This document shows positions 11,946 through 59,871 of a stretch of 64,000 bases of DNA, one piece after another. Position numbers and translations under genes: made by a program. Positions within the stretch are counted from its first letter, which is position 1. Every line of letters starts with the position of its first letter. The notes beneath the pieces were generated by a model, which ran no database searches, had not been told where the DNA came from, and was given only the letters and a program-made list of their open reading frames with translations. The stretch comes from Naegleria lovaniensis (Eukaryota; Heterolobosea; Eutetramitea; Acrasida; Naegleriidae), in assembly GCF_003324165.1 (NCBI RefSeq), contig NW_025407850.1, positions 463,647 to 527,646 of the forward strand, read 5' to 3'.

Positions 11946-12834
11946 TGATGGAAGATGAAATACACAATTTTTTTGTTTGTTTCGCTCTGTTTTGTTGTAA
12001 ACATTAAGATCTTTCTTAGAAATCCGGGGAATCACATCACATCACATCGCATTGAATCATATCACATCATAATAAATCACATCACAATTCTGGATAGAAT
12101 TTTCTTCGACGGTGTTCAGGAACGCTCTAAAAAATTCAAAAACATTTATTCCCGAATAAGGCCAGCCAGAGTTTCCAATAAACAATCGTCTATTAAGGTT
12201 TGTCCGCCAATCGTTTGAATTAAAATTTAAACAATAAACATGTTTAAACAATTATAATCAAAATAATCATGTTTAAACTTGTATAAACGTTTAAACTCGA
12301 TCAAACCAAAATTTATTTCTAAAAAACATTAAACAAATTTCTAAAGAATTAAATCTCATTTCAGATCGCTCGAGCATGGCTAGAGGTCTAATTCTTATCT
12401 TGTCCTCAAGATATTGAAGAGAGAGCGATTTGATCAGACCGCCACTGAGTGGGATTCATATTGAGCTCAAATGGAATGGAGTACTCATTAAAATTCAGAA
12501 TGTTGAACGAACCACTTTTTGTAACATGAGAAACGTCATACTATGCCTTCATCTTTTCTGATCAATTAGAAATAATATTACTATAATATATATTATTATT
12601 GTAATTTTAAACATTTACATGATCAAACATAATAAACTTGGTATTCAAGTTTAAACGTTTTAAAACTTGTTCAACCATGAACACAATAAACAATGACACT
12701 TCAAACCGAAGGCAGTAAAATCACAAGAAGAATGGGAAGAAGAGGAATGTTGTGAAATGTACTTAAGAATTTTTCTCTAAAAAAATCCTCATGGACATGC
12801 CTATCTCAATATTCATCCATGAAATACATTGATC
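11946..12834. other. 889-bp non-coding AT-rich intergenic stretch
   Basis: No supportable gene is seen. Contents include ATCACATCAC-type short tandem repeats at about 12031-12090; two clusters of TTTAAAC words (about 12225-12300 and 12605-12665), including the inverted pair AACGTTTAAACT at 12286 and AGTTTAAACGTT at 12648; and, between them, a stem-forming element at 12365-12429 listed separately. It separates two minus-strand genes and must hold the promoter of the LRR gene. Confidence 0.6.
12365..12429. other. inverted-repeat element able to form a nested stem structure
   Basis: ATCGCTC at 12365-12371 is perfectly complementary to GAGCGAT at 12423-12429, and inside lies a perfect 7-bp hairpin with a 4-nt loop: TATCTTG-TCCT-CAAGATA (12396-12413). 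The length (65 nt) and closing stem recall a small structured RNA, but there is no T-arm, box or known snRNA motif. It could be an uncharacterised non-coding RNA, a terminator-like structure or chance. Confidence 0.3.
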
Positions 12835-14442
12835 TCAATAATAATCATCCATAGAGGAAGATTCTGGTGCAAATTTCCAAATATAAATTGCCATGGTTGC
12901 AGCTGCTAGTACAAAAATTCCACCCCAAATGAATAATGATTGTTGTCTCATCTCTGTTTCACTTATTTCAACAAGTTGTTTTCTTCCCTTCTTTGAATGA
13001 ATCGTTCGACTGTTGTTACTATTACTACTAGTCTTTGAAGAATGATTTTTGTTTGATGATTTTTTCATATTCGAATACAGTAATGGTTGTCCATCATTCA
13101 ATGAATGTTGATACTTGTTGTTAGTAGATCGATGCGTCGAATTCACAACCCGACTCGAATGAGTTTCAAATCCAAAAAATTGAAAAAGTGGAGAAAGAGG
13201 TGATTTTGGAGATTGAACAGTGTCATCACCATGATCGTCATTGGCAAATACCAACTGTTGAGGAGATTGAGGAGAGAGTGGACTTGGATAATTTCTTAAA
13301 TATTCTTCTGTCAATCGTTGTTGTTTGGATTTTTCACATATTGGTGGTCGTGTATTGTCTTGTTCTTCAGACATGGATGAGTCGTTGTCATCATCACTTG
13401 AAAGATCATCTTCATCAGTGGAAGATGAATTCTCTGAAAATGCTCTTAATGAATGATTTTGAGTGAATTCCATCAGATCATCAATCTGAGGAACTTGTTT
13501 CTTGGAGCAAATATGAATGGAACAAAGTTTTTCAAAGGTAGCACACAAATTCATAAAATTAGGTTTTGGAACTTGAAATGGAATATTTCGAATGGGAATG
13601 TGTTTCACACCGAGTTCATTCCATAACAAGTGTTCAATCATGTCACGATTAATGGTACCTGGACAATACACCATTGAAGCAAATACTTTTTGAACACTTT
13701 TTGAATGATGGGTACTTGCTAATTTCAAAGAACTGTCATGATTGTTAGTTATTACACTTTTCGAGAGGGTTGGAACTTCCTCTACAAAATAGCTTGCCCA
13801 TTGTTGTGTCAATAGAGTGTGTAATTTTTCTTGAAATTGTTTTTCTTGATTTCTTCGAATTTCACTTCCTGCAGATTTGGCCCGATGTCCAGTTTGAATA
13901 TCGTGTGAAAGTTGTCTTCCTCCTTGTTTCTTTCGTGAGACATAATTTGAGAAGGTTTTATGAACGAGACATTTTCCACTTTCAAAATCAAAAATTCCTC
14001 CAGAAAAGTGTCCACCATGCATGATACAAATAAATAATAAATTTGAAAATATTTCAGAATTGGAGGTTTGATTGTTGTCTGTCATGTCATTCACTTGATT
14101 TGAAGAAGAAAAGGGATGTAAAATGTGTTGATCCTTGGATTGGATGCATTCTTCATTCATTTCTCGAGAATTTTCATCAATATTGTACCAACAATTCCAA
14201 AAAGTCATTACTTTAGAATTTTCTTCATGATCTCTTTCGTTGGAATGGTTTGGTAAATGCACTCCGATGAGTCCTGGAATTTGATTATAATTTTTTTCTA
14301 ATACACAAATTGGATGATGATTTGTCGTCGAATTAGTGGCCATTGTGTTTTCAATAAGAGCATTTAGAATGGTTTCATCATTGATTTTATATCGCCCGAA
14401 GGGATAGTCATCAATGTTCGACGCAGCTGTGGAGGATGACAT
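12835..14442 (-). CDS. Vms1/ANKZF1-like VLRF1-domain protein with C-terminal membrane anchor
   Basis: This 535-residue protein starts at the ATG at 14442, preceded by nine As. Residues about 134-294 form a VLRF1 (eRF1-like) domain, with GGHFSGGIFD, LVHKTF, the glutamine-bearing loop SRKKQGGRQ and KSAGSEIRRNQEK. In Vms1/ANKZF1 this domain cleaves peptidyl-tRNA on stalled 60S subunits during ribosome-associated quality control; the loop Gln (about residue 173) corresponds to the catalytic one. Unlike the known proteins, the N-terminal C2H2 finger and the ankyrin and VCP-binding regions are not visible. A Ser-rich linker leads to a single C-terminal transmembrane helix (about residues 503-524) and an 11-residue tail, a tail-anchor layout. 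Domain call firm; membrane targeting inferred. Confidence 0.85.
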   Translation of the reverse strand: MSSSTAASNIDDYPFGRYKINDETILNALIENTMATNSTTNHHPICVLEKNYNQIPGLIGVHLPNHSNERDHEENSKVMTFWNCWYNIDENSREMNEECIQSKDQHILHPFSSSNQVNDMTDNNQTSNSEIFSNLLFICIMHGGHFSGGIFDFESGKCLVHKTFSNYVSRKKQGGRQLSHDIQTGHRAKSAGSEIRRNQEKQFQEKLHTLLTQQWASYFVEEVPTLSKSVITNNHDSSLKLASTHHSKSVQKVFASMVYCPGTINRDMIEHLLWNELGVKHIPIRNIPFQVPKPNFMNLCATFEKLCSIHICSKKQVPQIDDLMEFTQNHSLRAFSENSSSTDEDDLSSDDDNDSSMSEEQDNTRPPICEKSKQQRLTEEYLRNYPSPLSPQSPQQLVFANDDHGDDTVQSPKSPLSPLFQFFGFETHSSRVVNSTHRSTNNKYQHSLNDGQPLLYSNMKKSSNKNHSSKTSSNSNNSRTIHSKKGRKQLVEISETEMRQQSLFIWGGIFVLAAATMAIYIWKFAPESSSMDDYY

Positions 14443-14663
14443 TTTTTTTTGATGTTCAATTTCTGAATGAATAATTTGAATATCATTCACAGAAATTGAA
14501 AAATTTTCTTCTCTTCATATGATTCCCAAACTGTTGCATTGATAGCGGCTGGATGAATGTGCACGTTTTGAAAAAGAGAAGAAGGTAAAATTGAATTTGG
14601 ATTTCAAAAGGAATTAAAAAAAGAGACGTTGGCCCGTCAGTTGTCATCCAAACCAACAAAAAA
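14443..14663. promoter_or_regulatory. divergent promoter region, Vms1-like / Qb-SNARE
   Basis: Only 221 bp separate the two divergent start codons, so both promoters must lie here or overlap the genes. No defined element is recognised. Confidence 0.5.
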
Positions 14664-35080: not shown

Positions 35081-37036
35081 ATGAGTAGCAACAACACTAA
35101 CGATACATCTTCCTCGTCGGAAGATGATGATTTTCATCAATTATTGATTCGGCGCTTCTTCATTGTTCCTTCTTTTGAAATTTATGGAGGTTTTTCTGGA
35201 TGTTATGATTATGGACCTCCAACTTGCTCCATCAAGAATAATATTCTGCAATTATGGAGACAACATTTTATTAGAGATGAGGAAAATGTACACGAAATGG
35301 ATGGTTCAAGTCTGACCATGGAATGTGTGTTATCAGCCAATGGACACCTCCAACAACATTCCGATTGGATGGCACAAGAATTTGATTTTCCGTGCCATTC
35401 ATCTCAACAGCATCCATACTCAGCAAGAAACAACTACGTTTCGAGAGTGGATCGAATTCTAGAGAATTTTATTGAAACTGAACTGGATGAAAATTCACAA
35501 TTATTGAGACCAGAACAATTTGAGGAATTGTATTTGGCAAAAAAGAAAATTCGTTCATCTTTGGCTGGAAGTGGTGATGAAGAGTTTTGGAATGAATTTA
35601 TAAAAAAGTATCGTGTGAAAAATCCAGCAACAGGAAAATACTTGCACAATATTCATTTCTACAATTTAATGTTCCCAATTTCCATACATAACAAAGGATC
35701 TACCAATCAAAAGGTCAAGAATTACCTTCGTAAAGATTTGAAACAAAATATTTATTGCAATTTCAATCGCTTGTTGCAGGTCAATAGAAACAAGCTACCA
35801 TTTGCTGCAGCACAGATAGGACAAGTGTTTCGAAATGAAATTTATCCAAAAAGTGTGTTAAGTGAGGTGAGAGAATTCACAAGTACCGAAATTATATGCT
35901 TTTTCAACCCAAATAGAGACATGCATCCTCGAATGGATCAAGTAAAGCATGTCATGGTGCCATTGTTGACACGAGAAAATCAAACCATGAGTTTGCCACC
36001 TATGGATTTTTCCATTGAAGATGTATTGAATCAACAATTTGTCAACAGCCCCATTCAAGCATATTATATTGCAAAAGTGAAATTGTTTATGGATCTGTGT
36101 GGTGTATTACCTAATGCCATTCGATTTCGGCAACACCTATCACACGAAATGTCTTTTTCAACCACGGATCATTGGAGCTGTGAATTGAAAAGCTCTTTGG
36201 GATGGATTGAGGTTGTTGATATTGTTAACAATTATTGTTACGATCTTAAATGCCATTCCTCTCAGTCGAGGCATGCATTGGTGGCATTTGAAACATTCGA
36301 CCAGCCATTGACGTCAGAAAATATTGTGATGGAAGTTGAACACGAAAAGCTTGGAAAAATATTGAGAAAGAACAAACGTGTGGTTCTTAACTTTCTGGAA
36401 ACACTGACGAATAACAAAAAGCTGGAACTTCAACAAGAATTAGAGAGTAATGGAAAATTTTCAATCTATATCCCACAACTCGATCGACAAGTAGAGCTTT
36501 CGAGTGATTTCATTTCGTTCCAAAAAAGAATAACGAAAATATATGGGTACAAATACGAACCGTGTGCTGTTGAGACGACTTTTCATATCGGTCGATTGAT
36601 CTATAGCCTACTTGAACAGTGTTTCTGGGTACGAAAAGGAAATTACTTACATGAAAAGATGTCACAAAAATATGTATTGTCTCTCCCAACAATAATTGCT
36701 CCCTACATGGTCGTATTGATTTCACAAATTTCCAATCGTGCATCTTCGTTCGAAGGTATGAGCAAAACTTTAACACAATTATTCACAAGAAATGGTATTA
36801 CCTTTCGTGTGGACAATTCTGCCAATCAAACCATTGGTAAGAAATATTCACGAGCCGATGAAATTGGTATTCCATTCGCTGTCACTATTGACAATCAAAG
36901 CGTCGAGTGCAACACCGTTACAATTAGGGAGCGTGACTCGTGCGACCAAGTAAGGCTTCCACTTGATGAGCTTGTTCCTACATTACTGGATCTCATACAC
37001 GGCAACAAATCATGGGAAGAAGTGTCACTCAAATAA
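35081..37036 (+). CDS. divergent glycyl-tRNA synthetase paralogue with altered active site
   Basis: The 651-residue protein starts at the first in-frame ATG (35081). It aligns along its length with eukaryotic GlyRS: EIYGGFSGCYDYGPPTCSIK, LSANGHLQQHSDWM, NKLPFAAAQIGQVFRNEI (motif 2, Arg251/Glu253), VREFTSTEI, IRFRQHLSHEM, the motif-3 region HIGRLIYSLLEQCF and a well-kept anticodon-binding domain (IGKKYSRADEIGIPFAVT, TIRERDSCDQVRL). However, residues that are nearly invariant in GlyRS are lost: RPETAQG has become RKDLKQN (217-223), SPRQG has become YPKSV, and the GIADR loop reads DIVNN (about 380). It may be a non-catalytic paralogue or have changed specificity. No targeting peptide is obvious. 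Confidence 0.85.
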   Translation: MSSNNTNDTSSSSEDDDFHQLLIRRFFIVPSFEIYGGFSGCYDYGPPTCSIKNNILQLWRQHFIRDEENVHEMDGSSLTMECVLSANGHLQQHSDWMAQEFDFPCHSSQQHPYSARNNYVSRVDRILENFIETELDENSQLLRPEQFEELYLAKKKIRSSLAGSGDEEFWNEFIKKYRVKNPATGKYLHNIHFYNLMFPISIHNKGSTNQKVKNYLRKDLKQNIYCNFNRLLQVNRNKLPFAAAQIGQVFRNEIYPKSVLSEVREFTSTEIICFFNPNRDMHPRMDQVKHVMVPLLTRENQTMSLPPMDFSIEDVLNQQFVNSPIQAYYIAKVKLFMDLCGVLPNAIRFRQHLSHEMSFSTTDHWSCELKSSLGWIEVVDIVNNYCYDLKCHSSQSRHALVAFETFDQPLTSENIVMEVEHEKLGKILRKNKRVVLNFLETLTNNKKLELQQELESNGKFSIYIPQLDRQVELSSDFISFQKRITKIYGYKYEPCAVETTFHIGRLIYSLLEQCFWVRKGNYLHEKMSQKYVLSLPTIIAPYMVVLISQISNRASSFEGMSKTLTQLFTRNGITFRVDNSANQTIGKKYSRADEIGIPFAVTIDNQSVECNTVTIRERDSCDQVRLPLDELVPTLLDLIHGNKSWEEVSLK

Positions 37037-37080: not shown

Positions 37081-40000
37081 TCAGTGTGTTTGAATCTTGC
37101 ACAAGAATTTAGCACTCGTGTCCAAACCTAAATAACAATCGGGAACTACACGAATTTCCAATTCCTTATCGTTCTCAGTAATTGGAAGATAAATTTCTGT
37201 AGGATTGATTTTCTTATTGGCTCTCACTCTCTTCATGGCTAACAGTTCTTGATTGGTTGGATTTGAAACAATGAGCCAAAATCCTTCATCTTTCTGCTTG
37301 GTATACATGGGAGTATAAGCTTGCTCTTTTGATTTGCTTATTCTTTCAATAATAATGTTCACTTCAATCTTGTGCTCTTCTTCGTCATGCAATACTTGAT
37401 CCACACGAACAGTTAAATATGGAAATTCATCAATGATTTTCATAATGTTGCTCACTAAACTATTCTTCTTTGTATACTTGGAAAGCAATTGCTGTAAAGA
37501 ATTTTCTCCATTCTTTGAAGAGTATCGAATGGAGAGTAATTGTTTCAATTCAGTAATATTTTCCTTAATTCCTAATAATTCGACAAGTTGATAAATTTCA
37601 TCATTCGTGTTAGTGTTTTCACGTGGACATGGCAAGTTACTAAATAATTGGAATAAAGTTGAGTCTTTCTCCCATCTCGCTTGCATGATCATTTGTAAAA
37701 TATGCATCATATTTAAAGACGCTTGTAAATAACCTTTCTCAGCACAAATGTCAATATATGCTTGTGCAATACGAATAGTTGAGTCTAATACAGTTCTAGT
37801 ATCGGTAATATAATCTACAATTGGTAATTTGACTCGTTCGAAGTGAGCTTGCAACAACAAGTAACATTTCACATGAGGAGATTCATAATCATATAAATAA
37901 CTTCCTAATGGCACCACCTCGCTCAATTCCTTGTTTAACTTGTCTTCATTATGTCGAACTGGAATTTCAGCAAACTCTTTGGCTTCACAAAGCAGTTCCA
38001 ATAGATAATTGATGTTAGAATCAGGTCTAATAAGTCTGTTGAAATGAGATGCAGTTCTATATGATAGATAATAGTAACTGGCAATAATACCTGTAGCAGT
38101 AGGTTCTAAATAAATTCCCTTTCTCTTTTGTTTTTCTTTTTCAGACTTTTCCTTCTCTGCTGTCATGGTACCAAAGGTATTTCCAGACTCAGTAGCCATA
38201 ACTTGTAAAAGTTTCTTCTTATCCATAGATAAATCTGTGGCCTTCACAAGTCCAGCAAATTCCAAGTCGTCAATAATTTCAGAAATCTTATTCGATAACC
38301 ACTTATTAAGACCTTCATAAGATAAATCTTCAATACCGTAATAAAAAGGATTTTGAACTAAACGACGGAACATAAATGTCCATGTTAAATAATCCAAACA
38401 ATCTTGTTTTGTCTTGATGGTACCTGATACAATTTCAGCATTAATGTGATCATGTAATTGAGTGTGTAAGCTTGATTCGATTGGGAATGGCTCATAGAGG
38501 AATCTCTTGTAAAAATTCTTTTTCACATCATGAACCATGATAAATACTCTTCCTTCTTCGTCAAATCCAGGACGACCAGAACGACCTGCCATTTGCAACA
38601 CATCAACAAGTGGATAATCCTCATATCGCTTAGTTTTTGGATCAAAGTATTCAGTTCCCTTAATAATGACAAAGTAGGCTGGCAAGTTGACACCCCAAGC
38701 CAATGTTGCTGTAGCAATGAGAACCTGAATTTTACCATTCAAAAACAATTCTTCAACAAGTTTCTTATCTGATGGAGTTAAACCAGCATGGTGAATTCCA
38801 ATACCATACGTTAAAAATTGTTTGAGATTGGTGTCACGAGCTAACTCACAAACCTGAATCAGCTCATCATTATTCATGTTCAAAAATCTTTGAGGATTTT
38901 CATCAACGGTACAATATGCAATTAAATCCATAGCTGTTAATCTGGTTTGTCTTCTTGATGATACGAAAATAAGACATGGCTTGTTATTGGAATGTCTCAA
39001 AATAGCTTGATATGCTGGCTTATTCATAGAGTTCATTCGAGGACAATAATTCTTTCCACTAAATCCAGAAATACTGATTTGTAATGGAACAGGTCGAACT
39101 GAGCTTCTAAAGTTGAATAGACCTCTTTGAGTGACACCTAACCAATCAGCCAAATCAGTAGCATTGGCCATATTGGTGCTGAGACCCATCATACGAATTG
39201 GTATTTGAGTATTCCAAGAAATGTATCTCATACGTGATGTAATAACTTCAAGAATTGCACCTCTCTCACTTCCAAGTAAATGAATTTCATCCATGACAAT
39301 GAGTCCAACATCTCTAACATAGGATCTATTTTGCCAATTTCTGGAAATACCATCCCATTTCTCAGGTGTGGTAATGACAATATCAGCTTGCTTCAATAAC
39401 TTGACATCAGGAGTGAAATCACCTGTCAATTCAACCATTCTTTTTCCAAGTTTTTGAACAAATTTCTTTTCCCATTCAGTCAATCGTTCTCTTACAAGGG
39501 CTTTCAATGGGGCAATATAAATAACTTTAGATTGAGGTTTCAAAGTAAACAATCTCATCATACACAATTCTGCAATTGAGGTCTTTCCTGAACCAGTTGG
39601 AGCACCCACCAAAATATTTTCATCAGAATGGTAAGCCATGTGGAAGATTTGTGTTTGAACAGGATTGAAATACTTAATTCCCTTATCTGTAAAGAGTTTT
39701 TCATAATTTGGATTATTGAGAGCAGTTACTGGAAGTGGATCAAGTGGCAATAATGGTGTACTTGGAGCAAAACCTTCGGGTAAAATAATATCCTTAATGT
39801 TAATCGTTAATTGAGCTTCAGCACTAATCCACTTATCTGAAACTGCACGAATAATGAAATATAGTGGTCGTGGATCTTCTTTAAATGGAACAACAAAGTT
39901 CAAAGTGAAACATGGGTCATCCTCTTCACCTTTAGATTCTTTCATCATCTTTTCATGTTCTGATTGTTTCAATAGGAAATATTCAGAGTGATAAATATAT

Positions 40001-43000
40001 TCTGAATTTTCATCTTCAACCCAAATCCACCATGGTTCAGTTTCTCCATGAAGTTTTTTGTCCCATGTAAAGTTTGGTCTGATTTTAACTTGGAATCGCA
40101 AAACTGATCTTGTGATTGGTTGAACGTTTGCTTCCAAATCAAGATTAGGGAATTTATCAATTGCTTCCATAACCACTCTTCCCATTCCTTTAACATTGAT
40201 AACTTGATCAAGCTCTGATTCTTCATATTCCACCAATCTAGAAAGTGTTAATTTCTTACTTTCAAGTTTTTGAATAGTGTAAGATGGTAATTTTGGTATT
40301 TGTCTTAAAGGATGTTCGAAAACCCATTGTCTTCTATCGATACATTTTGTCAGAGTTAAAAGTTTGTCCATCAATGATGACCATCGTTCCTTGACAGCAA
40401 TTTCAAAGAGAGCTCTCACAATTCTTCCTACACTTTGTACAATGAAAGCGCAATCTGAGATCAAGGAAGAGTTTTTGATCTTTACATGTGAAATGTAACT
40501 TTGTATCATGACGTTGACCTTTCCAGTATAATCGTTCAATCCTTTAACCTGAACAGGAGAGTTTGTACATAATTCTTGTAACTCTTCGCTTTCATCCTCT
40601 CTAACTTTGATATTTTTGAATTCACGAGCGCTTGCAACAATTTGTAACACATCAGATTCAGATAAATTAGCATGTAACTTTTCGTTATAGAGTTGAATTG
40701 TTTCATAGTGGATGTAATAATGAGAAGCAATACGTCCAAGATCGGTTGCTGAAACAACTCCTGTTTTTTCATCATAGATAATCATTTTGCTGTCTTGAAG
40801 AACCTTACAAGCTTTTTCAATAAGTGTTCTTCTTGTACCAATTAAAGTAGGATCAAGTTGAACTTCTTCAAATGTAAGTCCATAGTTCATTGGATTTTGT
40901 CTCATTCTTAAAAATAGATAGGTGTAATTCAACCATAGAGAACCTTCTCTCACATTGGATACGGTACCCAAAACAATTTCTGCACACAAATGATTTGCTA
41001 AATCTTGGGTCATTTGTGATTCAATTGGTAAATTACGTTTGAGTAAGTTCAAATATCGTGGTAATTGGTCATAACTAGTGATGATTACACCTTCACCTTC
41101 AACATCAAATTGAGGTCTACCAGCACGACCGAAAATTTGCATAATATCTAACATTCCAAGTTCAGTCATTTGACCTTTTTCTGCATTATAGACTTCTGTT
41201 CCTTTGATAATACAGCAATAGGAAGGTAAGTTTACACCCCAAGCAAGTGTTGATGTACAACAGAGAACTCTAATAACACCTTCAGCAAATAATTTTTCAA
41301 CAAGATTTCTGTCAGATCTTACTAAACCAGCATGGTGAATACCAAGACCTTTTGGAACTAAATCTTTCAATTCTCTATTATGACATTTCTCCAAGGCTTT
41401 GGTTACCCATTTCTTTGTATGTTCATTTTCAGGAACTCCTTGAGTGAAAAACTCTAAAGTACCTTCTTGCATTGCTAAATCTAGTAATGCTTTTGCGGTA
41501 GTTGAAGTTTCTTTTCTTGAATGTACAAATACCATCACTTGTTTTTGTTTCTTCAAATTCTTAAGAGCTCTATTATAAGCAATATTGTTATATTCTTGAC
41601 TTCTTTGAATTGGATTTCTTAAACTAACACCAATAAAACTCTGTTCAAGAGGTACAGGTCTATAAGATCCATCAAAGAAATGTAATCCTGAATGAGGGTT
41701 CACTCTCAAGAAGTGAGCAACGTCCATATAATTTGGTAATGTAGCAGAAAGACCAACTAATCTAATTAATGATTGAGTAGTTTCCATTTGTCGTAATGTT
41801 CTTGCAACAATGGATTCAATGACTGGACCTCTATCTTCATTCAGTAGATGAACTTCGTCAATGATGATTAATCGAGTGAGTTGAATGAGTGCCTGATCAG
41901 TAGCTTTTCTTGTAGTCACATCCCATTTCTCGGGAGTTGTGACAATCATTTGAGTTTGTTGAACCTCTTGCTTTGTAAGTTGCATATCTCCAGTCATTTC
42001 TTTTACAACAATACCTAACGGAGCAAGTCTCTTTGAAAAGTTTTCGACCATTTCAGCTGCTAAAGCTTTCATAGGAGCAATATAAATAATTTTAAATTCT
42101 TCACGTCTTATTTTTCCACCTCTGAAATGTTGTCCAATCTCTCTCAATACTGTTAACATGGCAACGTTTGTTTTACCACATCCTGTTGGTGCACAAATTA
42201 GTAAATTTTCTGAGGTTTTGTAAGCTGAGTAGAAAACATCAGATTGAACACGGTTAAGATGAGTGTATCCCTTAAATGCAAGTTGTGCCCAGTCCTCAAA
42301 AACTGAAATAGGTACCAAAGGTTGAGTATCTTGACGTGGTTTTGGAGCTGGAAAAACGTGTTCTTCATAGGTTTGTTGTCTAATGACACGTTCTTGTGTT
42401 TCCTTGTCAGCTTCATTCTTGTCTTCTGGAATGACATCTCTTCCTAATTTCAAAACTCTTGCTTCTCCTTCTCCTTCCTTCAAAACTGTACGATCCTTTT
42501 CTTTTTTGAATTTTTGATATAATTCTTTCAATTCAAGTTGTTCGTTCAAATTAACACCGCCACCAGAAAGATTGATTTTTTTTTGATGTTTTCTTCCAAG
42601 TTTTTTACCTTCTTTTCTCAAACCCTTTTTAGCTTCTTTGAATTTTGAAGTGGTCATCTTGATATGAGAGAAAGAGTTGATACCTTCAACGGCATTTTCT
42701 TCCATTTGTCGTTTGTAAAAATCTTTCAAAAGCTCTGACTTGTGTTCCATAATAATTGACATTAACTCGAAAGCGTTTTCTCCAAGAATGTCAAACAGTC
42801 GTGATTGAAGTTCAACATCGCTTTGGCCCTTCTTTTGCAACAATTCCATAACAGCATTTTCAATTCCTGCTGTTTTACAAACTTTTTTGCATTCTTTTTC
42901 AAGCCATTCCATGCTGAACATGGATGTTGGTTCTTCCTCTTCTTCTTCGTTTTCATCATAAATATCTTCATCTTCTTGAGAAATATGTGAAAATAAATTT

Positions 43001-43956
43001 GTTTGATCCAACACATTCTCAAGTTGACTCTTAGAAAATACCACAAGAGGTCTAAATTGGTGATATAAATGTGCGGAGTGCTCAGCATCATCCATAGATC
43101 CGAATTCTACATTCTCATCAATATCAATGCCGTTGTCATCATTCTCACTTTCAGATGTAACAAAATGAGTGTTGGTATTCTTCGATTCACCAGTTCCAAT
43201 GAGTACCTTTTCTATTTTGGAGTATCTTCGTTCTTCCTCTTCATGTAGTCCAGGTTTTGCAAATCTGTCAATCCAATCAACGACTTTTTCTAAATATTGG
43301 ATAACCTTGATAACATTTTCTTCTTTTACAGTTTGAACAAGTTTTTGAATTTTAGGATCTAATGTCAAACCAATACCCATGTTCTGTAAATCTTTAAAGA
43401 CACTTTTAACACTCAAATTGTTCTTAAACTTTCTTTTGGCAATATAGAGTTGTTTGGCGATCAAACAAGCAAGCTGTCCTTTCGATAAGCCACTTGCAAC
43501 TCCATATTTGTTGGATGACACTTGATCCAAGCGCAAATTCTCTTCGATCGCTGTCAAAAAGTGGTCCAACAAATTTCTTCCGTTCTGTTCTTCAATTCTT
43601 TTATCAAAATTCGCGTTCACTTTACGTGAAGGTTGAGAGAAGGAAATTTTTGGTTTGATGAAACTATCCCAAGTTAATCCAAATTTTACCAAGTCATCTT
43701 CAGCGTTCTTCTTTCTCTTGTTTTCAATCGCTGGAAATAATTCATAATATGATTTTGTCTCATCAAACAATTGCAAAGAATTATTACCAATAGTCTTTTC
43801 ACGCAAGACGTTTGATAATCGTGGTGGAGATATTAGCAGGTCCATTGATGTCGTAGATGATGAATCGTTTCCTTCTCCCGAAAGAAAAGAAAGACTTCTT
43901 GATCCTATTGCTCTCGGAAGCAACTTTTCGAAAATATCAGCAGACGAAGAGGACAT
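37081..43956 (-). CDS. ASCC3: ASCC3/Slh1-type double-cassette Ski2-like RNA helicase
   Basis: The 2291-residue single-exon protein starts at an ATG preceded by a long A-run. Cassette 1 has Walker A APTGCGKTN (about residue 590), DEVH (about 700), SATLPNY and FGRAGRPQFD, followed by a Sec63 domain. Cassette 2 has APTGSGKT (about 1450), DEIH (about 1555), ATATLAWGVNLPA and AGRSGRPGFD, followed by a second Sec63 domain. Both cassettes keep active motifs, and runs such as GETEPWWIWVEDENSEYIYH and YFNPVQTQIFHMAYHSD match ASCC3/Slh1 better than Brr2, whose second cassette is degenerate. ASCC3/Slh1 splits collided ribosomes (RQT complex) and aids alkylation repair. The acidic N-terminal region probably binds partners. 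Confidence 0.9.
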   Translation of the reverse strand: MSSSSADIFEKLLPRAIGSRSLSFLSGEGNDSSSTTSMDLLISPPRLSNVLREKTIGNNSLQLFDETKSYYELFPAIENKRKKNAEDDLVKFGLTWDSFIKPKISFSQPSRKVNANFDKRIEEQNGRNLLDHFLTAIEENLRLDQVSSNKYGVASGLSKGQLACLIAKQLYIAKRKFKNNLSVKSVFKDLQNMGIGLTLDPKIQKLVQTVKEENVIKVIQYLEKVVDWIDRFAKPGLHEEEERRYSKIEKVLIGTGESKNTNTHFVTSESENDDNGIDIDENVEFGSMDDAEHSAHLYHQFRPLVVFSKSQLENVLDQTNLFSHISQEDEDIYDENEEEEEEPTSMFSMEWLEKECKKVCKTAGIENAVMELLQKKGQSDVELQSRLFDILGENAFELMSIIMEHKSELLKDFYKRQMEENAVEGINSFSHIKMTTSKFKEAKKGLRKEGKKLGRKHQKKINLSGGGVNLNEQLELKELYQKFKKEKDRTVLKEGEGEARVLKLGRDVIPEDKNEADKETQERVIRQQTYEEHVFPAPKPRQDTQPLVPISVFEDWAQLAFKGYTHLNRVQSDVFYSAYKTSENLLICAPTGCGKTNVAMLTVLREIGQHFRGGKIRREEFKIIYIAPMKALAAEMVENFSKRLAPLGIVVKEMTGDMQLTKQEVQQTQMIVTTPEKWDVTTRKATDQALIQLTRLIIIDEVHLLNEDRGPVIESIVARTLRQMETTQSLIRLVGLSATLPNYMDVAHFLRVNPHSGLHFFDGSYRPVPLEQSFIGVSLRNPIQRSQEYNNIAYNRALKNLKKQKQVMVFVHSRKETSTTAKALLDLAMQEGTLEFFTQGVPENEHTKKWVTKALEKCHNRELKDLVPKGLGIHHAGLVRSDRNLVEKLFAEGVIRVLCCTSTLAWGVNLPSYCCIIKGTEVYNAEKGQMTELGMLDIMQIFGRAGRPQFDVEGEGVIITSYDQLPRYLNLLKRNLPIESQMTQDLANHLCAEIVLGTVSNVREGSLWLNYTYLFLRMRQNPMNYGLTFEEVQLDPTLIGTRRTLIEKACKVLQDSKMIIYDEKTGVVSATDLGRIASHYYIHYETIQLYNEKLHANLSESDVLQIVASAREFKNIKVREDESEELQELCTNSPVQVKGLNDYTGKVNVMIQSYISHVKIKNSSLISDCAFIVQSVGRIVRALFEIAVKERWSSLMDKLLTLTKCIDRRQWVFEHPLRQIPKLPSYTIQKLESKKLTLSRLVEYEESELDQVINVKGMGRVVMEAIDKFPNLDLEANVQPITRSVLRFQVKIRPNFTWDKKLHGETEPWWIWVEDENSEYIYHSEYFLLKQSEHEKMMKESKGEEDDPCFTLNFVVPFKEDPRPLYFIIRAVSDKWISAEAQLTINIKDIILPEGFAPSTPLLPLDPLPVTALNNPNYEKLFTDKGIKYFNPVQTQIFHMAYHSDENILVGAPTGSGKTSIAELCMMRLFTLKPQSKVIYIAPLKALVRERLTEWEKKFVQKLGKRMVELTGDFTPDVKLLKQADIVITTPEKWDGISRNWQNRSYVRDVGLIVMDEIHLLGSERGAILEVITSRMRYISWNTQIPIRMMGLSTNMANATDLADWLGVTQRGLFNFRSSVRPVPLQISISGFSGKNYCPRMNSMNKPAYQAILRHSNNKPCLIFVSSRRQTRLTAMDLIAYCTVDENPQRFLNMNNDELIQVCELARDTNLKQFLTYGIGIHHAGLTPSDKKLVEELFLNGKIQVLIATATLAWGVNLPAYFVIIKGTEYFDPKTKRYEDYPLVDVLQMAGRSGRPGFDEEGRVFIMVHDVKKNFYKRFLYEPFPIESSLHTQLHDHINAEIVSGTIKTKQDCLDYLTWTFMFRRLVQNPFYYGIEDLSYEGLNKWLSNKISEIIDDLEFAGLVKATDLSMDKKKLLQVMATESGNTFGTMTAEKEKSEKEKQKRKGIYLEPTATGIIASYYYLSYRTASHFNRLIRPDSNINYLLELLCEAKEFAEIPVRHNEDKLNKELSEVVPLGSYLYDYESPHVKCYLLLQAHFERVKLPIVDYITDTRTVLDSTIRIAQAYIDICAEKGYLQASLNMMHILQMIMQARWEKDSTLFQLFSNLPCPRENTNTNDEIYQLVELLGIKENITELKQLLSIRYSSKNGENSLQQLLSKYTKKNSLVSNIMKIIDEFPYLTVRVDQVLHDEEEHKIEVNIIIERISKSKEQAYTPMYTKQKDEGFWLIVSNPTNQELLAMKRVRANKKINPTEIYLPITENDKELEIRVVPDCYLGLDTSAKFLCKIQTH

Positions 43957-52631: not shown

Positions 52632-53180
52632 ATGCCTCTCCTAGTATTCAATAAAAAGACTCGTGTGCCATCCATGGATATGGACGAACAACACGAGCGA
52701 GAACGACAATTTCAGAAACAACTTCAACAAAAAGTACACGACGAAGAAGACTTTGATTCCTGGAAGAATGCTGATAAACAGAAAATCAACAACTCGTCAC
52801 TCTCTGTACAAGCTTCTTCTTCACGAGGAAGATCCAAATCCGAACATCAACAAAATACAACAACCTCCTCTCCATCATCACAAAATGGAGAAAAAAGCTC
52901 ATGGTTCGGACGCGGAAGATCTCAATCAAACAAACAACAACCTTCCTTGACAGTAACATCTCCATCAGATGCTGTGGAAGAGACTCAAGAAGGAGTTTCT
53001 AAAGAAGAGATGAGAACCGGCAAGATGCAACACCAACACACCAAGAAGAAGGGACAAGTTGGCGATTATGAAGAGGATCATGAGGAGGAAAGACAAGAAA
53101 TTCCAAAGGACGAACAAAAGGTGAAGAGGAAATACAGTTTAAAGAAAAAGAGTGCTGAATTGTTATCTTCTGATGAGTGA
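52632..53180 (+). CDS. unknown low-complexity, highly charged protein
   Basis: This 182-residue frame runs from ATG (context CTACAATG) to TGA. It begins MPLLVFNKKTRVPSMDMDEQ, then is rich in Gln, Glu, Lys and Ser, with two Arg/Ser-type elements (SSRGRSKSE and FGRGRSQSN) and a Lys/Glu-rich end (VKRKYSLKKKSAELLSSDE). It is probably disordered throughout. No homologue is recognised; coding status is moderate because disordered proteins give weak evidence. Confidence 0.5.
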   Translation: MPLLVFNKKTRVPSMDMDEQHERERQFQKQLQQKVHDEEDFDSWKNADKQKINNSSLSVQASSSRGRSKSEHQQNTTTSSPSSQNGEKSSWFGRGRSQSNKQQPSLTVTSPSDAVEETQEGVSKEEMRTGKMQHQHTKKKGQVGDYEEDHEEERQEIPKDEQKVKRKYSLKKKSAELLSSDE

Positions 53181-53495
53181 GGGACGTGTGACCTGTAATT
53201 TTATACATTTCAATGAAAACATGTAAACTGTCAACAGAATGACTAAAAATGTCCATACGATCACAATGTACAAAAGATTTCATAAAAAATTGAAAGAGAG
53301 AATTAATGTATTGATTGACTTGATGATTATTGTGAAAAGAACCCATCCATGAAGTTAAATAAGGTATTGATCGTGAATGAGCATGTCACAAGTGTCAACT
53401 CACTAAAATTCATCCCTACGTTTGAATTCAAAATTTCAACTCAACTCGAAAGTGACTTCCTGAGAAATTGCTCTTGTGTTGCAATGTCAAGATTT
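53181..53495. other. 315-bp convergent intergenic region
   Basis: Lies between two convergent stops. It should contain only 3' UTRs; no gene or structured element is seen. Confidence 0.4.
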
Positions 53496-54344
53496 CTATT
53501 TAATAAGTCGATCATTTCGAACTGCTCCAGCCTCCTTATAATATCTCAACAACATTCTCTTTTCCAAATCACTTGCATACTCCTTCTTACTGAACTTGTC
53601 CAATTCATATCCAATCACTAAAGAAACACCCAATGACAAGGCAGCATAAAAAGGAATTCTTCTTTTCGTTCGCTTCACCATTTCCTCTCTCTCCATTTCC
53701 ACTTGAAAAGGACTAAATTTTGGTTTGTTGTGCATGAATTGATTCCACTCTGTTTTCGATTCGTCAAAAAAGTGAGACGAAATCTTTTCATCCTCTTCTC
53801 GAGTTTTCTTTTGATTCAATCGATGCATTTGTTCTCTAAATACCTTTTCTTCTTCACTCAAATTTTCAACATCTTCCTTTCGTGATTGATATCGATCCGA
53901 TTGATGAATGTAATGATACATTTTCCTCCTCATGGCTGAATCATAGGCAACCGTATTGAGATTGGTTCCGAAAATACTACTCGAACTATTCATAATTCTT
54001 CCAAAATGTGTTCCAATATCCAATTCCCGATCGTATTCTGCTCTCTTTTCTTCATCACTCAATAATTCATAACTATCCTGAATATCGAGCCATGCCTGCT
54101 CATCTTCCAATGAAAGTACTGCTGAATTGGATGGTTTTCCAGAATCGGAAATGAGTTCGGAAGCATTATTGTTGGTCACCACTCCATTCATGATGGAATT
54201 ATTATTCGTTGAAGAAGGTTTTTTGGCATCGGGATGGTACCTTTTTGCTAATGCATAATAGGCTTTTTTAATTTGTTGTTTGGAGGCTGAACGAGGAACT
54301 CCCAATACTGCATAGTGATCCATGATTTGAGTGGGTAATTTCAT
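53496..54344 (-). CDS. J-domain co-chaperone with C-terminal membrane helix
   Basis: The 282-residue protein starts at an ATG at 54344 (MKLPTQIMDHYAVLG); Met8 is an alternative. The N-terminal J-domain has DHYAVLGVPRSASKQQIKKA, the HPD motif in KRYHPDAKK, an Asn/Ser insertion, and the final helix with DSYELLSDEEKRAEYDRELD. The middle is charged. A single transmembrane helix (FYAALSLGVSLVIGYEL, about residues 236-252) precedes a basic tail. It lacks the Gly/Phe and zinc-finger regions, so it is a class-C J-protein that recruits Hsp70 to a membrane, possibly ER or mitochondrial. The insertion before the last J-domain helix is unusual. Confidence 0.85.
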   Translation of the reverse strand: MKLPTQIMDHYAVLGVPRSASKQQIKKAYYALAKRYHPDAKKPSSTNNNSIMNGVVTNNNASELISDSGKPSNSAVLSLEDEQAWLDIQDSYELLSDEEKRAEYDRELDIGTHFGRIMNSSSSIFGTNLNTVAYDSAMRRKMYHYIHQSDRYQSRKEDVENLSEEEKVFREQMHRLNQKKTREEDEKISSHFFDESKTEWNQFMHNKPKFSPFQVEMEREEMVKRTKRRIPFYAALSLGVSLVIGYELDKFSKKEYASDLEKRMLLRYYKEAGAVRNDRLIK

Positions 54345-55133
54345 GTTGTGTGATTTGTGTTTGTTTGTGTGGTGTTTGATGGTTTTTTTGATGATAATGT
54401 GAAATTATTGTAATTATAATAATTATTTGAAACTAAATAATGAATTCTATTTCTAGTAATAAATATGAAATAATTAGAGGGATGATGAATATGATTTTTG
54501 AAATGATAATAATTATTTTTCAATTGTCTAAATGGATTTGCACCAAAGTGTTGTCGTCGACGGTTATTCGATTCTTTCTCTCCGATGAAAAGATGACACT
54601 GGTGATAATTAACGACAAGAGGTTGACGCGAAAGTGGGTGATGATGATGCAGCTGTTAATTGACTTGTTTTTGTTTGAAAAAATGCTTTAAAAGGTGTTT
54701 TAATTTGAAAAATGGCTAAATTCGGCCCGAAGTACAGCTATTGCTCCGACATTTGACTTTGGGTGTTGTATAAATGTAACATGCTGTTGTTCTTACAATT
54801 AGAGTCATTCACTCCTGCATTCTCTAATGGTGTGATGGTTTGGAAAAGAATCGTTCGTGGTGGCGTTGTAAAAAGTACCGCCGAGGAAATTTTTGAGCGT
54901 CCAATGAAAATCCAACAAAAATGCCGCCACCGCCAAAATTCTTTCCGTTAAACTTTAAAATGAAAAACATGCATCTGCCAGCTGTCAACAACGGCTTAAA
55001 ATTTTCACAGAGCGCCTATCGTCACTTGCTTCAACAACAAAAAAAACAAGTCAATCATCTCATTACCAGATAATTGATACCACAACAACACACTCCTAGA
55101 AAGAAGAACACTAATCACACACTCTAACACAAA
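54345..55133. promoter_or_regulatory. divergent promoter region, J-protein / alpha-tubulin
   Basis: 789 bp between divergent starts. It is very AT-rich near the J-protein. An 83-codon + strand frame (54440-54691) looks random. The 100 bp before the tubulin ATG are rich in CAACAA and ACAC motifs. No promoter element is proven. Confidence 0.4.
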
Positions 55134-56675
55134 ATGAGAGAAGTCGTTTCATTGCACATTGGTCAAGCCGGTATTCAAGGTAAGTCATGAATCATCCACA
55201 CCTTTTTCATCATCCATTTGATATTCTTTTCATATGAATTTTACTCCTCCATATCCACAACAATGATAAAATCATTATCCATGTCCACAACAATGATCAT
55301 ATGATCCACAACAAATATTGAAACAACAACATTGTCATTCAACAATGAATTATATTATTTTCACACAGTCGGTAACGCTTGTTGGGAACTCTTCTGTGCC
55401 GAACATGGAATCAACCCAGACGGTACCTCTTCCTCCATCAACGATGCCTCTTCCTCTGTTTACTTTTCTGAAAATTCACGTGGTAAATACGTTCCACGTG
55501 CATTGATGGTCGATTTAGAACCTTCTGTCATTGATGCCATCAAAAACACTGAATACAAGCAATTGTATCATCCTTCTTACTTGTTACGTGGAAATGAAGA
55601 TGCTTCCAATAACTTTGCTCGTGGTCATTACACCATTGGAAAGGACATGCTCGATTCTGCCATGAATTCCATTCGTAAGATTACTGACAATTGTCAAAGT
55701 TTGCAAGGTTTTCAAATTTTCAACTCTGTTGGAGGTGGTACTGGTTCTGGATTTGCTTCCTTGCTATTGGAAAGACTTGCTGTTGAATTTCCAAAAAAGA
55801 CTAAATTGGGTTTCAATATTTATCCAAGTCCTCAATTGACAACTTCCGTAGTTGAACCTTACAACTCTGTGTTGAGTACTCATGCCTTATTGGAACACAA
55901 TGATGTGTCTGTAGTATTGGACAATCAAGCCATTTACGATGTCTGTAAGAATAATTTGAAAATTGACAGACCCAACTATAAGAATTTGAATCGTGTCATT
56001 GCTCAAACTGTTTCCAGCTTGACTTGCTCATTGAGATTCCCTGGATCTTTGAATGTCGATTTGAATGAGTTCCAAACCAATTTGGTTCCATATCCAAGAA
56101 TTCACTTCATGTTGTCCTCTTTGGCTCCAATGGTTTCTGTCTCAGAACAATACTATGCCAATAATAATGCTGCTGAATTGACAAGTCATGTCTTTGAACC
56201 TAATAACATGATGGCCAAGTGTGATCCAAGAAGTGGCAAGTACATTTCATGTTGTTTAATGTACCGTGGTAAAGATATTGTCAATAAGGATGTGAGTGAT
56301 GCTGTCAAGGTCATGAAGAGCAAATCGAGCATTCAATTTGTGGATTGGTCTCCATGTGCTTTCAAGATTGGTATTAATCAACAATCTCCAACCATGTTGC
56401 CAGGAAGTGAAATGGCTCAAGTCGATAACTCTTGTTCCATGATTTCCAATAACACTGCCATTGCTTCTGTCTTTGCTAGAATGAATGACAAGTTTGACTT
56501 GTTGTTTGCAAAGAGAGCATATGTACATCACTTTGTTGGAGAAGGAATGGAGGAAGGTGAATTCAATGAAGCTCGTGAAGATTTGGCTGCTTTGGAAAAG
56601 GACTACAGTGAAATTAGTAAGGATACTATTAGTGAAGAGGATTCCATGTTGGATGAAGGTGAAGAAATGCATTAA
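55134..56675 (+). CDS. divergent alpha-tubulin, mitotic type (two exons)
   Basis: Exon 1 (55134-55179) encodes [15 protein letters not shown] and exon 2 runs 55369-56675; the 189-nt intron has donor GTAAGT and acceptor CACAG. The 450-residue product has the alpha-tubulin length and signatures: [16 protein letters not shown], the GTP motif [25 protein letters not shown], the catalytic Glu in [20 protein letters not shown], and [20 protein letters not shown]. It is unusually divergent. The K40 loop is shortened and has no Lys, helix and surface residues differ widely, and it ends DEGEEMH without the terminal Tyr. Naegleria is known to build its spindle from divergent mitotic tubulins separate from its conserved flagellar ones; this gene fits that class by inference. 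Confidence 0.93.
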
Positions 56676-56877
56676 GTTCATTCATAATGATCAATGATGC
56701 CACAAGTCAAATTCTCTGTGCGCCTCCTAATTAGTACTACATGTAAACGATGATCATGTTTGACGAAGGTTCATACATGCATCTCAAATAAAACTATTAA
56801 TATTTTAACAATTCAAACTCTAGAAATGATTTGAGCGTTCAAGAAAATTATTAAGCACTGGTTCTTAGTGAAGAAAT

Positions 56878-59871
56878 TTACTGATTGAATTGCGTAAACA
56901 AGGTTTGCAACGATTCCAAATCCAATTTCAAATTCAAAGACGATACTGTCGTTCCTATTATGGTATTAAGAGGTTGAATTATGAATGATGACTCTTCACC
57001 AATTATTAAAGTCTTTCTTCGAGCACAATCAATCATTCGTTGCACCACATGTCCAAATCCTCGAAAAACTTTCACAAATCGTTTTCCCAGCAAACTAGCA
57101 GCCAATAAATCTCTTTCCAACATGTCATGGTAATATAAAAATTGTTGCCTCAAATCGTTATTCATCAATTTTGAATCTTCTTGATTAACTTCATGCTCAA
57201 TTTCCTCAATGGCTTCTGCATGTGCTTTCCATCCAAGTGCAATTCCACTCAATAGAAAAGGAGGAATATGTCCAAATAATGGATGTGACGAGAGGCGTGT
57301 CAATTCTTCAGTCACCGATCGAAGTTCTCTTCCTCGTAGCCCTAGTTCTCTATAAATTCCTAGTCGATAAGAAACCATCGTAATTGAAATAATTAAATGA
57401 GCTAAAATTTTCCCCTTTTCTTGTACATTCTTTTTTGCATTGTCGTATTTGGTGTAGCATTCATAAATTTTGTCCACAAAGTACAAATATTTTGGGAGAG
57501 TATCTTTTTTAAGTGGTTGACTGAGAATGGACATTAATTCTTCAGGGACCGTATTGGAGCTTGTACTGTATTTGTATCCTTCCAGTAATTTTCGTTGAAT
57601 ATAATTTGAAACTCCTTCAACTTGTTCATAATCGAAATCTTGTGTTATAAAAGTTGCAAGTACACATCCTCGTTTGAGACATGACAGGGAGTCGTCCATT
57701 TCTTTGATTTGTGACAGATAGGATCTTGTAATAGCGACTAATTCAGTAGCATCTTGATCCATAGAGGATGCAGCTGCATAGGATGCTAAATAACAACAAA
57801 TCGCAGCTACTAAATAACTAGGTCGATCCAAATCAAGATATTCCGAAAATAGTAATTCCTTACTTCTGTAAAAAGATCGAATTGCATTTTCATTATTTCC
57901 AAATCTCTGATAACAAAAACTTTGAATGGCATACAGCAATGAAAAATATTGGGTACTGCTTCCATAATTTTCTCTCTCAGCGAGTATTGTTTGAAAAGTA
58001 TTTCTTGGAATTATTGACACACCAGCACTCACCACTCCAAAGAAAAGATCCACCGTTTGTTGTTGCAAGACCACTTGAGAAAGAACAGCGTTTCGTTCAA
58101 AGGTACAATACACAGCATCGTCAATGACTTGGGGAAGAGTATGGTTGAGAGATTGTTGTACATTGATGGTTGTTGGAAGGAGGTGTTGAAATGTTGGATC
58201 AAAATTTTGGTTTGTGTTCGAGTGTACAGTGGAGGTGGCGGTCGCCATGGATAATTGTTGTTGAAGGAGTGGCATGATTTGTGAAGCATTGGTTAGTTTC
58301 ACAAGGAGTGATAATAAACGATTAATGACGGATGGATCTGCATTGTTTTGAATGGCGTATTGAAACAATTGTAAAATTCGTTCAATAGTTGCTGAATGGG
58401 AGTTCATCGATGCAGAAGTGTTTCCTTGAGAATGGGGTTGACTTTCAGAATTCACTGGTGCTTGATTTGAATGATCCGAATGATCTTCTTGAGTTGAGTG
58501 ACTGCTTGGATCAAATTGTAAATTGTGAAAATTAACGGAATGCAGAGCAGCTCTCTGATTCATTTCATCTCGAATATTCACTTGTGGTTGTTGTTGTTGT
58601 TGAGAAAGTGTCATTGATGATGGGAAAGACAAGTTTAGAAATGGTGAGTGTTGTGAAGGATTGGGTTGAACTTGTTTTTGAATTCCACGAGAATGATAAT
58701 CAGAATCTTCAGCTGATTCCGAACTCGTGATGGATGTTGGTCGCCCATGAGAAGTGGAAACAGAATGAGAAAGGGTTGTTGATGACGATTTGTCGATGTG
58801 GTCAAAGTTCGTACCAATCCGGGTTGAGGATGAATGGATCACCTGTGAAGGAATAAGGGAAAAGTTCAGAGTTGGTTTTTCTTGACTGGTCAAGAGAGGA
58901 GTGTTGCTACTATTCGAAGTCGTAGGTGTAGTCGTGCTATTCGATTGACTATTCGCTTTCCTTTTTCGAATTGGATTGGTTTTCACATGACCAGTGAATA
59001 AATTTAGAGTTGAATGAACCGTCCCAGTGGTTGTTGTTGATGAGGATGCTTGTTGAGAAGAGGTGCATGCAAGAGTCTCTGAGCTGTTTTGAGAAATCGT
59101 GGTTGTTGTCTGACCTTTCATTGGTTTTGAAGTTTGTTGCTGCTGAGGCGTTAAGAATGAAACACTCACACACTTGTGATTCTGTTTTCCCTTTTCAAAA
59201 CTTTCCAAACCAAGAACACTTATGGTGACTGGTTTCTTTTTTTGAATCTTGTTTTTGCTACCCACGGTTCGACCTCTTTTCTTGGCTTCAGGATAGACAC
59301 AGATTTTACCTTTCGAAGTGCATTCATGACATGCTGGCAACTGACGTCCACAGCGTTTGTGTCCTCTTCGACACGTGATGCAAGAAATGGCATTAAAATT
59401 AGCAGACATTGTTTCTAGATCAGAATTTTCAAGAAGAATTGCATTCAATGATACCCGTTGTTGCTCTTCTTCCTGAAAAGTATCAATGATTGATGCATGT
59501 ATTTCTTCGGACCATGATGAAAGTGGAATCTCATGCAGGGTCGAGAACTCGCTTTCATGAATCGCCATGAGTTTCCGATGTGAAGACATTGATTCATCCT
59601 CCTCTCGCTCCTGAAATAGTGGTTGTGTGTGACTCTTCGTTAATTCCTGTTGTGATGGTTGAGTGGATGGACACGATGGATACACGATTGAAGACAACAC
59701 GCCTTGATGATGAGCTAGTTGTTGTACATCCTCCTGATGCTTCTCCTCCTGCTCTTTATCCTTCGAAGGTGGTTCTTGAGAGTTGTTGTTATTATTATTA
59801 TCGTCATGATTAAAACTACGATCGGTCATCATAATTCTGCGTCCACCACAAGCATTATCATGACCTTGCAT
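56878..59871 (-). CDS. Zn(II)2Cys6 (Gal4-type) transcription factor
   Basis: The 997-residue single-exon protein starts at the first in-frame ATG (59871). A Gln/Glu/His-rich head precedes a binuclear zinc cluster at residues 164-191 with spacing C-x2-C-x6-C-x6-C-x2-C-x6-C (core CITCRRGHKRCGRQLPAC) and a basic linker (KKRGRTVGSKNKIQKKK). A long Ser/Thr/Gln-rich stretch follows. The C-terminal 400 residues are helical (for example NENAIRSFYRSKELLFSEYL and AAICCYLASYAAAS), perhaps a regulatory domain. Such factors bind CGG-type half sites and are mostly fungal, though some protists have them. It is divergent from DNAAF1, with 469 bp between starts. Confidence 0.88.
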   Translation of the reverse strand: MQGHDNACGGRRIMMTDRSFNHDDNNNNNNSQEPPSKDKEQEEKHQEDVQQLAHHQGVLSSIVYPSCPSTQPSQQELTKSHTQPLFQEREEDESMSSHRKLMAIHESEFSTLHEIPLSSWSEEIHASIIDTFQEEEQQRVSLNAILLENSDLETMSANFNAISCITCRRGHKRCGRQLPACHECTSKGKICVYPEAKKRGRTVGSKNKIQKKKPVTISVLGLESFEKGKQNHKCVSVSFLTPQQQQTSKPMKGQTTTTISQNSSETLACTSSQQASSSTTTTGTVHSTLNLFTGHVKTNPIRKRKANSQSNSTTTPTTSNSSNTPLLTSQEKPTLNFSLIPSQVIHSSSTRIGTNFDHIDKSSSTTLSHSVSTSHGRPTSITSSESAEDSDYHSRGIQKQVQPNPSQHSPFLNLSFPSSMTLSQQQQQPQVNIRDEMNQRAALHSVNFHNLQFDPSSHSTQEDHSDHSNQAPVNSESQPHSQGNTSASMNSHSATIERILQLFQYAIQNNADPSVINRLLSLLVKLTNASQIMPLLQQQLSMATATSTVHSNTNQNFDPTFQHLLPTTINVQQSLNHTLPQVIDDAVYCTFERNAVLSQVVLQQQTVDLFFGVVSAGVSIIPRNTFQTILAERENYGSSTQYFSLLYAIQSFCYQRFGNNENAIRSFYRSKELLFSEYLDLDRPSYLVAAICCYLASYAAASSMDQDATELVAITRSYLSQIKEMDDSLSCLKRGCVLATFITQDFDYEQVEGVSNYIQRKLLEGYKYSTSSNTVPEELMSILSQPLKKDTLPKYLYFVDKIYECYTKYDNAKKNVQEKGKILAHLIISITMVSYRLGIYRELGLRGRELRSVTEELTRLSSHPLFGHIPPFLLSGIALGWKAHAEAIEEIEHEVNQEDSKLMNNDLRQQFLYYHDMLERDLLAASLLGKRFVKVFRGFGHVVQRMIDCARRKTLIIGEESSFIIQPLNTIIGTTVSSLNLKLDLESLQTLFTQFNQ

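Follow-up and report, generated by a model that had tools for sequence, protein, structure and literature searches.

A glycyl-tRNA synthetase paralogue with an altered glycine pocket and a frameshifted second copy in Naegleria lovaniensis

The paralogue gene and its surroundings

The window analysed here is a 64,000-nucleotide stretch of a Naegleria lovaniensis contig (NW_025407850.1, positions 463,647 to 527,646 of the forward strand), with a GC content of 35–37%. Positions 35081–37036 (+) of this window form a single ATG-started open frame that encodes a protein of 651 amino acids, with the stop codon ending at 37036. The protein is a paralogue of glycyl-tRNA synthetase (GlyRS): it scores 470.1 bits against the TIGR00389 (glyS_dimeric) model, where the cut-off is 243.3, and hence passes as an alpha2 (dimeric) GlyRS, while the human GlyRS chain is matched with an E-value of 1.4e-111; these two values exclude a chance match. 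Identity reaches 52% to the canonical GlyRS encoded elsewhere in the same genome and 34% to human GARS1. Against the Pfam tRNA-synt_2b model the paralogue remains under the cut-off (22.3 versus 29.3), which the canonical copy exceeds (36.6); the anticodon-binding domain (HGTP_anticodon, PF03129; 36668–36988, +) is detected with 73 bits over residues 545–636. The paralogue shares with both the canonical enzyme and human GARS1 the fold, the domain order, motif 1, most of motif 2 and the anticodon domain. In contrast to the canonical enzyme, it lacks an N-terminal helical hairpin and contains an insertion of 14 residues (approximately residues 101–114; 35381–35422, +; the ends depend on the alignment), which directly precedes the sequence YVSRVD where the canonical protein has ECFRAD. 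The N-terminus is acidic and serine-rich, and by inspection does not have the look of a mitochondrial presequence.

The best AlphaFold model of the paralogue displays a mean pLDDT of 77.9, corresponding to moderate confidence. When this model was used for a fold search, GlyRS entries made up the best 26 of the 50 listed PDB matches, with the human-type enzyme placed first; query TM-scores ranged from 0.42 to 0.67 and overlay rmsd values from 6 to 15. The protein is thus predicted to have the GlyRS fold. The hairpin is seen in the model of the canonical copy, whilst the motif 2 loop has a pLDDT below 50 in both (residues 255–261 of the paralogue, 302–308 of the canonical protein), so that comparing loop confidence is uninformative. 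An assignment as accessory subunit of DNA polymerase gamma was also considered, given that Pol gamma B (POLG2) is a non-catalytic relative of class II synthetases and matches the part of the paralogue containing the anticodon domain by sequence. This match is much weaker than that to GlyRS (E-values of 7.2e-11 and weaker for Pol gamma B chains, compared to 1.4e-111) and the 26 GlyRS entries stand ahead of the first PolG2 entry in the fold search, which rules this candidate out; Pol gamma B is moreover said to occur only in Metazoa (PMC4419789).

Tail to tail with the paralogue and separated from it by 44 bases between the frames lies a gene for a double helicase of the ASCC3/SLH1 type (37081–43956, −), whose best PDB match is ASCC3 (8alz, 1873 bits). 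ASCC3/SLH1 acts on stalled ribosomes, and its position next to a GlyRS paralogue is probably a coincidence. A further gene of the window (12835–14490, −) encodes a VLRF1 release-factor domain (PF18826, 9.4e-30) together with a hydrophobic C-terminal segment, and we take its product to be a Vms1/ANKZF1-like candidate.

The canonical enzyme and the altered active site

Our search of the genome (30.7 Mb in 97 contigs) revealed an intact canonical GlyRS of 718 amino acids on contig C20 (C20:24673-26829) and a copy of it on C79, the two differing over 2157 bases by a single silent change. This canonical enzyme exhibits the motifs RPETAQG, SPRSG, GIANR and EPSFGIGR. The TIGR00389 search of the genome returned the canonical copies, the window gene, a second copy of the paralogue on contig C45 (in two pieces) and one weak match of 24.3 bits on C32; the alpha subunit of the bacterial alpha2beta2-type GlyRS was looked for in the genome and not found. 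Two PF03129 matches of equal score lie on opposite strands of contig C54 (C54:67650-67955, +; C54:141737-142042, −) and possibly form an inverted duplicate. The initial annotation of the window gene as an inactive paralogue had hinged on the presence of another, canonical GlyRS gene. With such a gene found on both C20 and C79, the paralogue cannot be the sole GlyRS of the genome and is free to be inactive.

In the paralogue, the glycine-binding loop RPETAQG is replaced by RKDLKQN (residues 217–223; 35729–35749, +), as initially proposed, and this replacement is borne out by gap-free alignment to both the canonical copy and human GARS1. The same alignments place YPKSV (residues 255–259) opposite the motif 2 loop and DIVNN (residues 380–384; 36218–36232, +; human G406>D and R410>N) opposite GIANR, and the lack of gaps inside all three motifs rules out their misalignment. 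Both of these substitutions are real, although the starting points assumed at first (SPRQG and GIADR) need correction: the canonical enzyme of this genome has SPRSG and GIANR, so that Asn in place of human D409 is not special to the paralogue. In motif 2 (residues 250–270; 35828–35890, +) the core elements FRNE and REF and the residue E270 are retained (R251, N252, E253, R264, E265, F266 and E270), with changes in the YPKSV loop and from R to E at position 262. A fourth change, missed by the initial annotation and among the strongest evidence, lies in motif 3, where EPSFGIGR has become ETTFHIGR (36572–36595, +; human S524>T and G526>H, with E522 and R529 kept). Expressed in human numbering, the changed residues are P244>K, E245>D, T246>L, A247>K, G249>N, R283>K, G285>V, R288>E, G406>D, R410>N, S411>Y, S524>T and G526>H; those kept are R243, Q248, R277, N278, E279, V289, R290, F292, E296, E522, F525, G528 and R529.

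E245, E296 and E522 of human GARS1 are reported to bind the amino group of glycine, with R410 interacting with E245 and E522 (PMC4938167). The paralogue has D219, E270, E498 and N384 at these positions, and therefore fails to retain this set of four, with two kept. At the position equivalent to human G526 (H502 in the paralogue), the G526R substitution is reported to deprive the enzyme of charging in vitro (kcat/Km 1/44,000) and to be lethal in yeast, although the same table gives "Normal (Drosophila)" for a fly assay (PMC8247414); in a fragment of a further table, which comes without its column headings, minus signs stand against both P244L and G526R (PMC5094542). Class II enzymes are described as holding the adenosine phosphate with two conserved arginines (PMC5919687), and by our own mapping from motifs 2 and 3 this pair would correspond to human R277 and R529, which are kept in the paralogue as R251 and R505. 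The initial view of an eroded ATP site was hence too strong, as these arginines and two of the three glycine-binding glutamates persist. Judged from the alignments, glycine handling is the most changed part of the site, and the core of ATP binding is kept. Since P244, R410, G526 and other residues essential in human GARS1 have been lost, the proposed loss of normal glycylation does appear likely, with this activity being either impaired or absent.

Conservation was then compared between regions of the protein using bacterial GlyRS sequences, which were found through a DNA pattern for RPETAQGIFVNF: at least 120 stretches matched, 80 loci were listed, 55 of these had complete frames of 440–600 amino acids and 28 were left after dereplication at 75% identity. 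Columns conserved to at least 90% in these 28 sequences and identical in the canonical and human proteins were treated as invariant (84 sites); the RPETAQGIFVNF pattern fixes the RPETAQG columns in the bacterial set by construction and inflates their invariance, while the canonical and human sequences support these columns independently. The paralogue keeps 18 of 30 invariant sites in the active segments (RPETAQG, motif 2, GIADR and motif 3), 29 of 36 in the other catalytic regions and 14 of 18 in the anticodon domain (Fisher p: active segments versus other catalytic regions 0.10, active segments versus anticodon domain 0.34, catalytic versus anticodon domain 0.77). Without the human row the counts are 51 of 71 for catalytic and 16 of 20 for anticodon sites. 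If the bacterial filter is dropped, 174 of the 277 sites common to the canonical and human proteins are kept, with 29/49 in the active segments against 145/228 elsewhere (p 0.63) and 30/45 in the anticodon domain against 144/232 elsewhere (p 0.62). The contrast drawn initially between an eroded active site and an intact anticodon domain is thus not significant (p at least 0.10), and losses are spread over the regions. The anticodon domain is indeed kept, but only about as well as the remainder of the protein (59/104 sites identical to the canonical protein versus 255/490). What these counts show is an active site without its former special protection; erosion is not confined to it, nor does the anticodon domain stand out as specially kept.

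The region with the highest retention is that of motif 1 and the dimer interface (residues 20–65; 35138–35275, +), where 22 of 25 sites shared by the canonical and human proteins are kept versus 152/252 elsewhere (p 0.008, uncorrected and the best of 15 tabulated regions), closely followed by residues 227–249 (13/15). Motif 1 forms the dimer interface in these enzymes. The least-kept of the longer regions comprises residues 66–133 (14/30), where the 14-residue insertion lies immediately ahead of the altered ECFRAD sequence. In human GlyRS this region helps to dock the acceptor end, and if it does so here too, docking by the paralogue is doubtful.

Ancestry, selection and near-identical copies

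In a tree of 31 proteins, the paralogue and the canonical GlyRS are sisters (support 99/94) with the human protein outside. The branch of the paralogue is sevenfold longer than that of the canonical enzyme (1.32 versus 0.18), and the tree program flags both this long branch and the letter make-up of the paralogue, making its placement less sure than the support implies. The paralogue shares residues with the canonical protein only at 146 sites and with the human protein only at 34. Taken with the sister grouping, these counts indicate that the duplication most likely postdates the divergence from the human lineage and is lineage-specific. Comparison of the two Naegleria genes (NG86) affords a dN of 0.39 and a dS of approximately 2.0, which is saturated and bounds the strength of selection only roughly. 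Over 623 codons, changes are least frequent at position 2 (148), compared with 230 at position 1 and 342 at position 3. When neutral decay was simulated by randomly mutating the canonical gene until 60% identity remained, a mean of 16.9 stop codons with a minimum of 5 arose (300 runs), whereas the window copy contains none over 651 codons at 48% divergence: this argues for the paralogue having long been under selection. For the greater part of its history the gene was probably under constraint, and its past maintenance as a folded protein is very likely.

The second copy of the paralogue on C45, which the initial annotation did not foresee, is 99% identical to the window copy. It lacks a stretch of 62 bp (35481–35542, +; ends ambiguous by approximately 2 bases), the absence of which shifts the frame. 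An intron as the source of this difference was ruled out, given that the stretch is not of GT...AG form and aligns with canonical coding sequence. The comparison of the copies further reveals a 3-bp in-frame difference in the motif 2 loop (35863–35865, +), with SEV in the window and RV on C45; the copies are further distinguished by 3 synonymous and 2 nonsynonymous changes, compared with the single silent change between the canonical copies on C20 and C79. The similarity extends well beyond the gene: in a comparison covering bases 50001–130000 of C45 and matches of more than 300 bases, positions 19041–46781 of the window match C45 from 101196 down to 73482 at 98.7–99.5%, less the 62-bp gap, and two further matching stretches of approximately 0.5 kb each lie outside this interval. 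Window positions 53000–57000 have a 99% copy on contig C19. For positions 10000–14000 no 99% copy was found, with 59 other matches at 70–86%. A gene in this part (10740–12035, −) encodes a leucine-rich-repeat protein of a large family with at least 59 other genome matches at 70–86% DNA identity, all within approximately 10724–11980 of the window; with scores computed for 40 of 86 candidates, this number is a minimum. The near-identical copies on C45 and C19 suggest separately assembled, rearranged haplotypes or segmental duplication, and the C45 copy of the paralogue may be allelic, stem from segmental duplication or reflect, in part, an artefact of assembly. The frameshift it contains indicates that one gene dose, and perhaps the whole gene, is dispensable.

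Possible roles of the paralogue

We favour, with a probability of about 0.55, an origin of the paralogue by lineage-specific duplication of the alpha2 GlyRS gene, followed by loss of normal glycine activation; the protein would have been retained for a long time in a folded, non-catalytic and probably dimeric form, and in the best reading the gene is by now dispensable, or in decay on one of its copies. With His in place of G526, and with the surroundings of P244 and R410 lost, glycyl-adenylate would be kept from forming or from being placed correctly. Motif 1, being well kept, could allow the paralogue to associate with another molecule of itself or with the canonical enzyme. Any action of the paralogue would consist in binding tRNA-Gly or a canonical subunit without charging. 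Such binding is physically reasonable by analogy, as sequestration of tRNA-Gly has been reported for human GARS1 variants whose charging is severely reduced (PMC11928938). The closest example is G526R (PDB 2pmf), which affects the same motif 3 glycine and is described as inactive in vitro, dimer-forming and sequestering tRNA-Gly (PMC8247414, PMC11928938), although this is a disease point mutant and not an evolved paralogue, and the Naegleria protein has His at this position along with many other changes. In Trypanosoma, the AdoMetDC prozyme offers a comparable case: this paralogue, itself catalytically dead, associates with the active sister enzyme (PMC5201418); it belongs to an unrelated enzyme, and pairing of the GlyRS paralogue is only a possibility. 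Several observations stand against our favoured explanation: R277, R529, E279, F292, E296 and E522 are kept, leaving adenylate chemistry possible, the counts of conserved sites do not single out the active site (p 0.10 and p 0.63), and G526R is listed as normal in the fly assay (PMC8247414). The saturated dS, the moderate confidence of the model with its overlay rmsd values, and the possible artefact on C45 also count against it. Binding of tRNA by the paralogue is likewise only putative, given the poor retention of residues 66–133 (14/30) and the change to Lys of R283, a residue reported to make base contacts with G1 and G71 of tRNA-Gly (PMC9908026). A present role as either dimer partner or tRNA-Gly binder is put forward tentatively, with the odds somewhat against it. 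We regard as unlikely the more specific proposal of a Naegleria pseudo-synthetase, a non-catalytic subunit that would tune the glycyl-tRNA supply by pairing with the canonical enzyme through motif 1 or by holding tRNA-Gly. The paralogue agrees with a pseudo-synthetase in having an intact sister gene with full motifs and in the loss of essential active-site residues, with the presumed loss of activity; as to maintenance by selection, the open frame exceeds what simulated neutral decay leaves, but the second copy is frameshifted.

Because of this frameshifting deletion in one of two copies, decay has to be weighed seriously against a regulatory role. A redundant duplicate under relaxed constraint, without present function and currently being lost, would also account for the fast branch and for losses that cover all regions without focus. 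Against this stand the open frame of the window copy, far below the simulated neutral stop count despite 48% divergence, and the low number of changes at codon position 2 (148/623 versus 230 and 342), so that we consider decay alone possible but on balance improbable. The paralogue could instead be an active, specialised GlyRS (a stress or organelle form) that tolerates an unusual pocket, with two glycine-binding glutamates kept, the third replaced by Asp and the ATP arginines in place. Yeast provides a precedent for a functional, divergent second GlyRS: GRS2 is, like the Naegleria gene, a divergent duplicate beside a housekeeping GlyRS gene, reported as stress-inducible and dispensable in normal growth, but when highly expressed it rescues a GRS1 knockout at 37 °C (PMC3306390). 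Unlike GRS2, the Naegleria paralogue has lost pocket residues, with P244K, R410N and G526H occurring together, and has one copy frameshifted, while the acidic, serine-rich N-terminus does not resemble the presequence of an organelle form; activity of this kind is quite improbable. Least probable is a repurposed adenylating enzyme that would still use ATP and have exchanged glycine for another acid or acceptor. The kept ATP-site residues, the rebuilt amino-acid loop (RKDLKQN) and the changes S524>T and R410>N could be accommodated by such an enzyme, but H502 lies where G526R is reported to abolish charging by human GARS1 in vitro (PMC8247414), and the motif 2 loop is not the same in the two copies, a sign that it may be weakly constrained.

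Relatives of the paralogue were absent from the viral contigs scanned, and none of the 12 stretches returned when genome contigs were scanned with the canonical protein was a relative. A search for literature on Naegleria and glycyl-tRNA synthetase afforded no paper, and among the listed matches on Naegleria aminoacyl-tRNA synthetases none concerned GlyRS by title or abstract opening. The gene was likewise not reported in the titles and abstract openings listed for Naegleria synthetases, synthetase paralogues and GRS2, a scope beyond which most subscription papers lie. Synthetases that have been duplicated and repurposed are already known, and the table of one review includes for GlyRS the active yeast GlyRS2 and carrier-protein ligases (PMC9437257); a GlyRS pseudo-enzyme of whole architecture was not found reported in Naegleria among the matches listed. 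In the sources as available, full-length GlyRS duplicates that lack catalysis but retain the whole architecture appear to be little described. Should the Naegleria paralogue bind tRNA-Gly or the canonical GlyRS without charging, it would offer a natural parallel to the tRNA-Gly sequestration described for human GARS1 neuropathy, and as a true pseudo-synthetase it would represent an evolved counterpart of the tRNA-sequestering GARS1 mutants; if it is only decaying, it would be an example of relaxed constraint after duplication.
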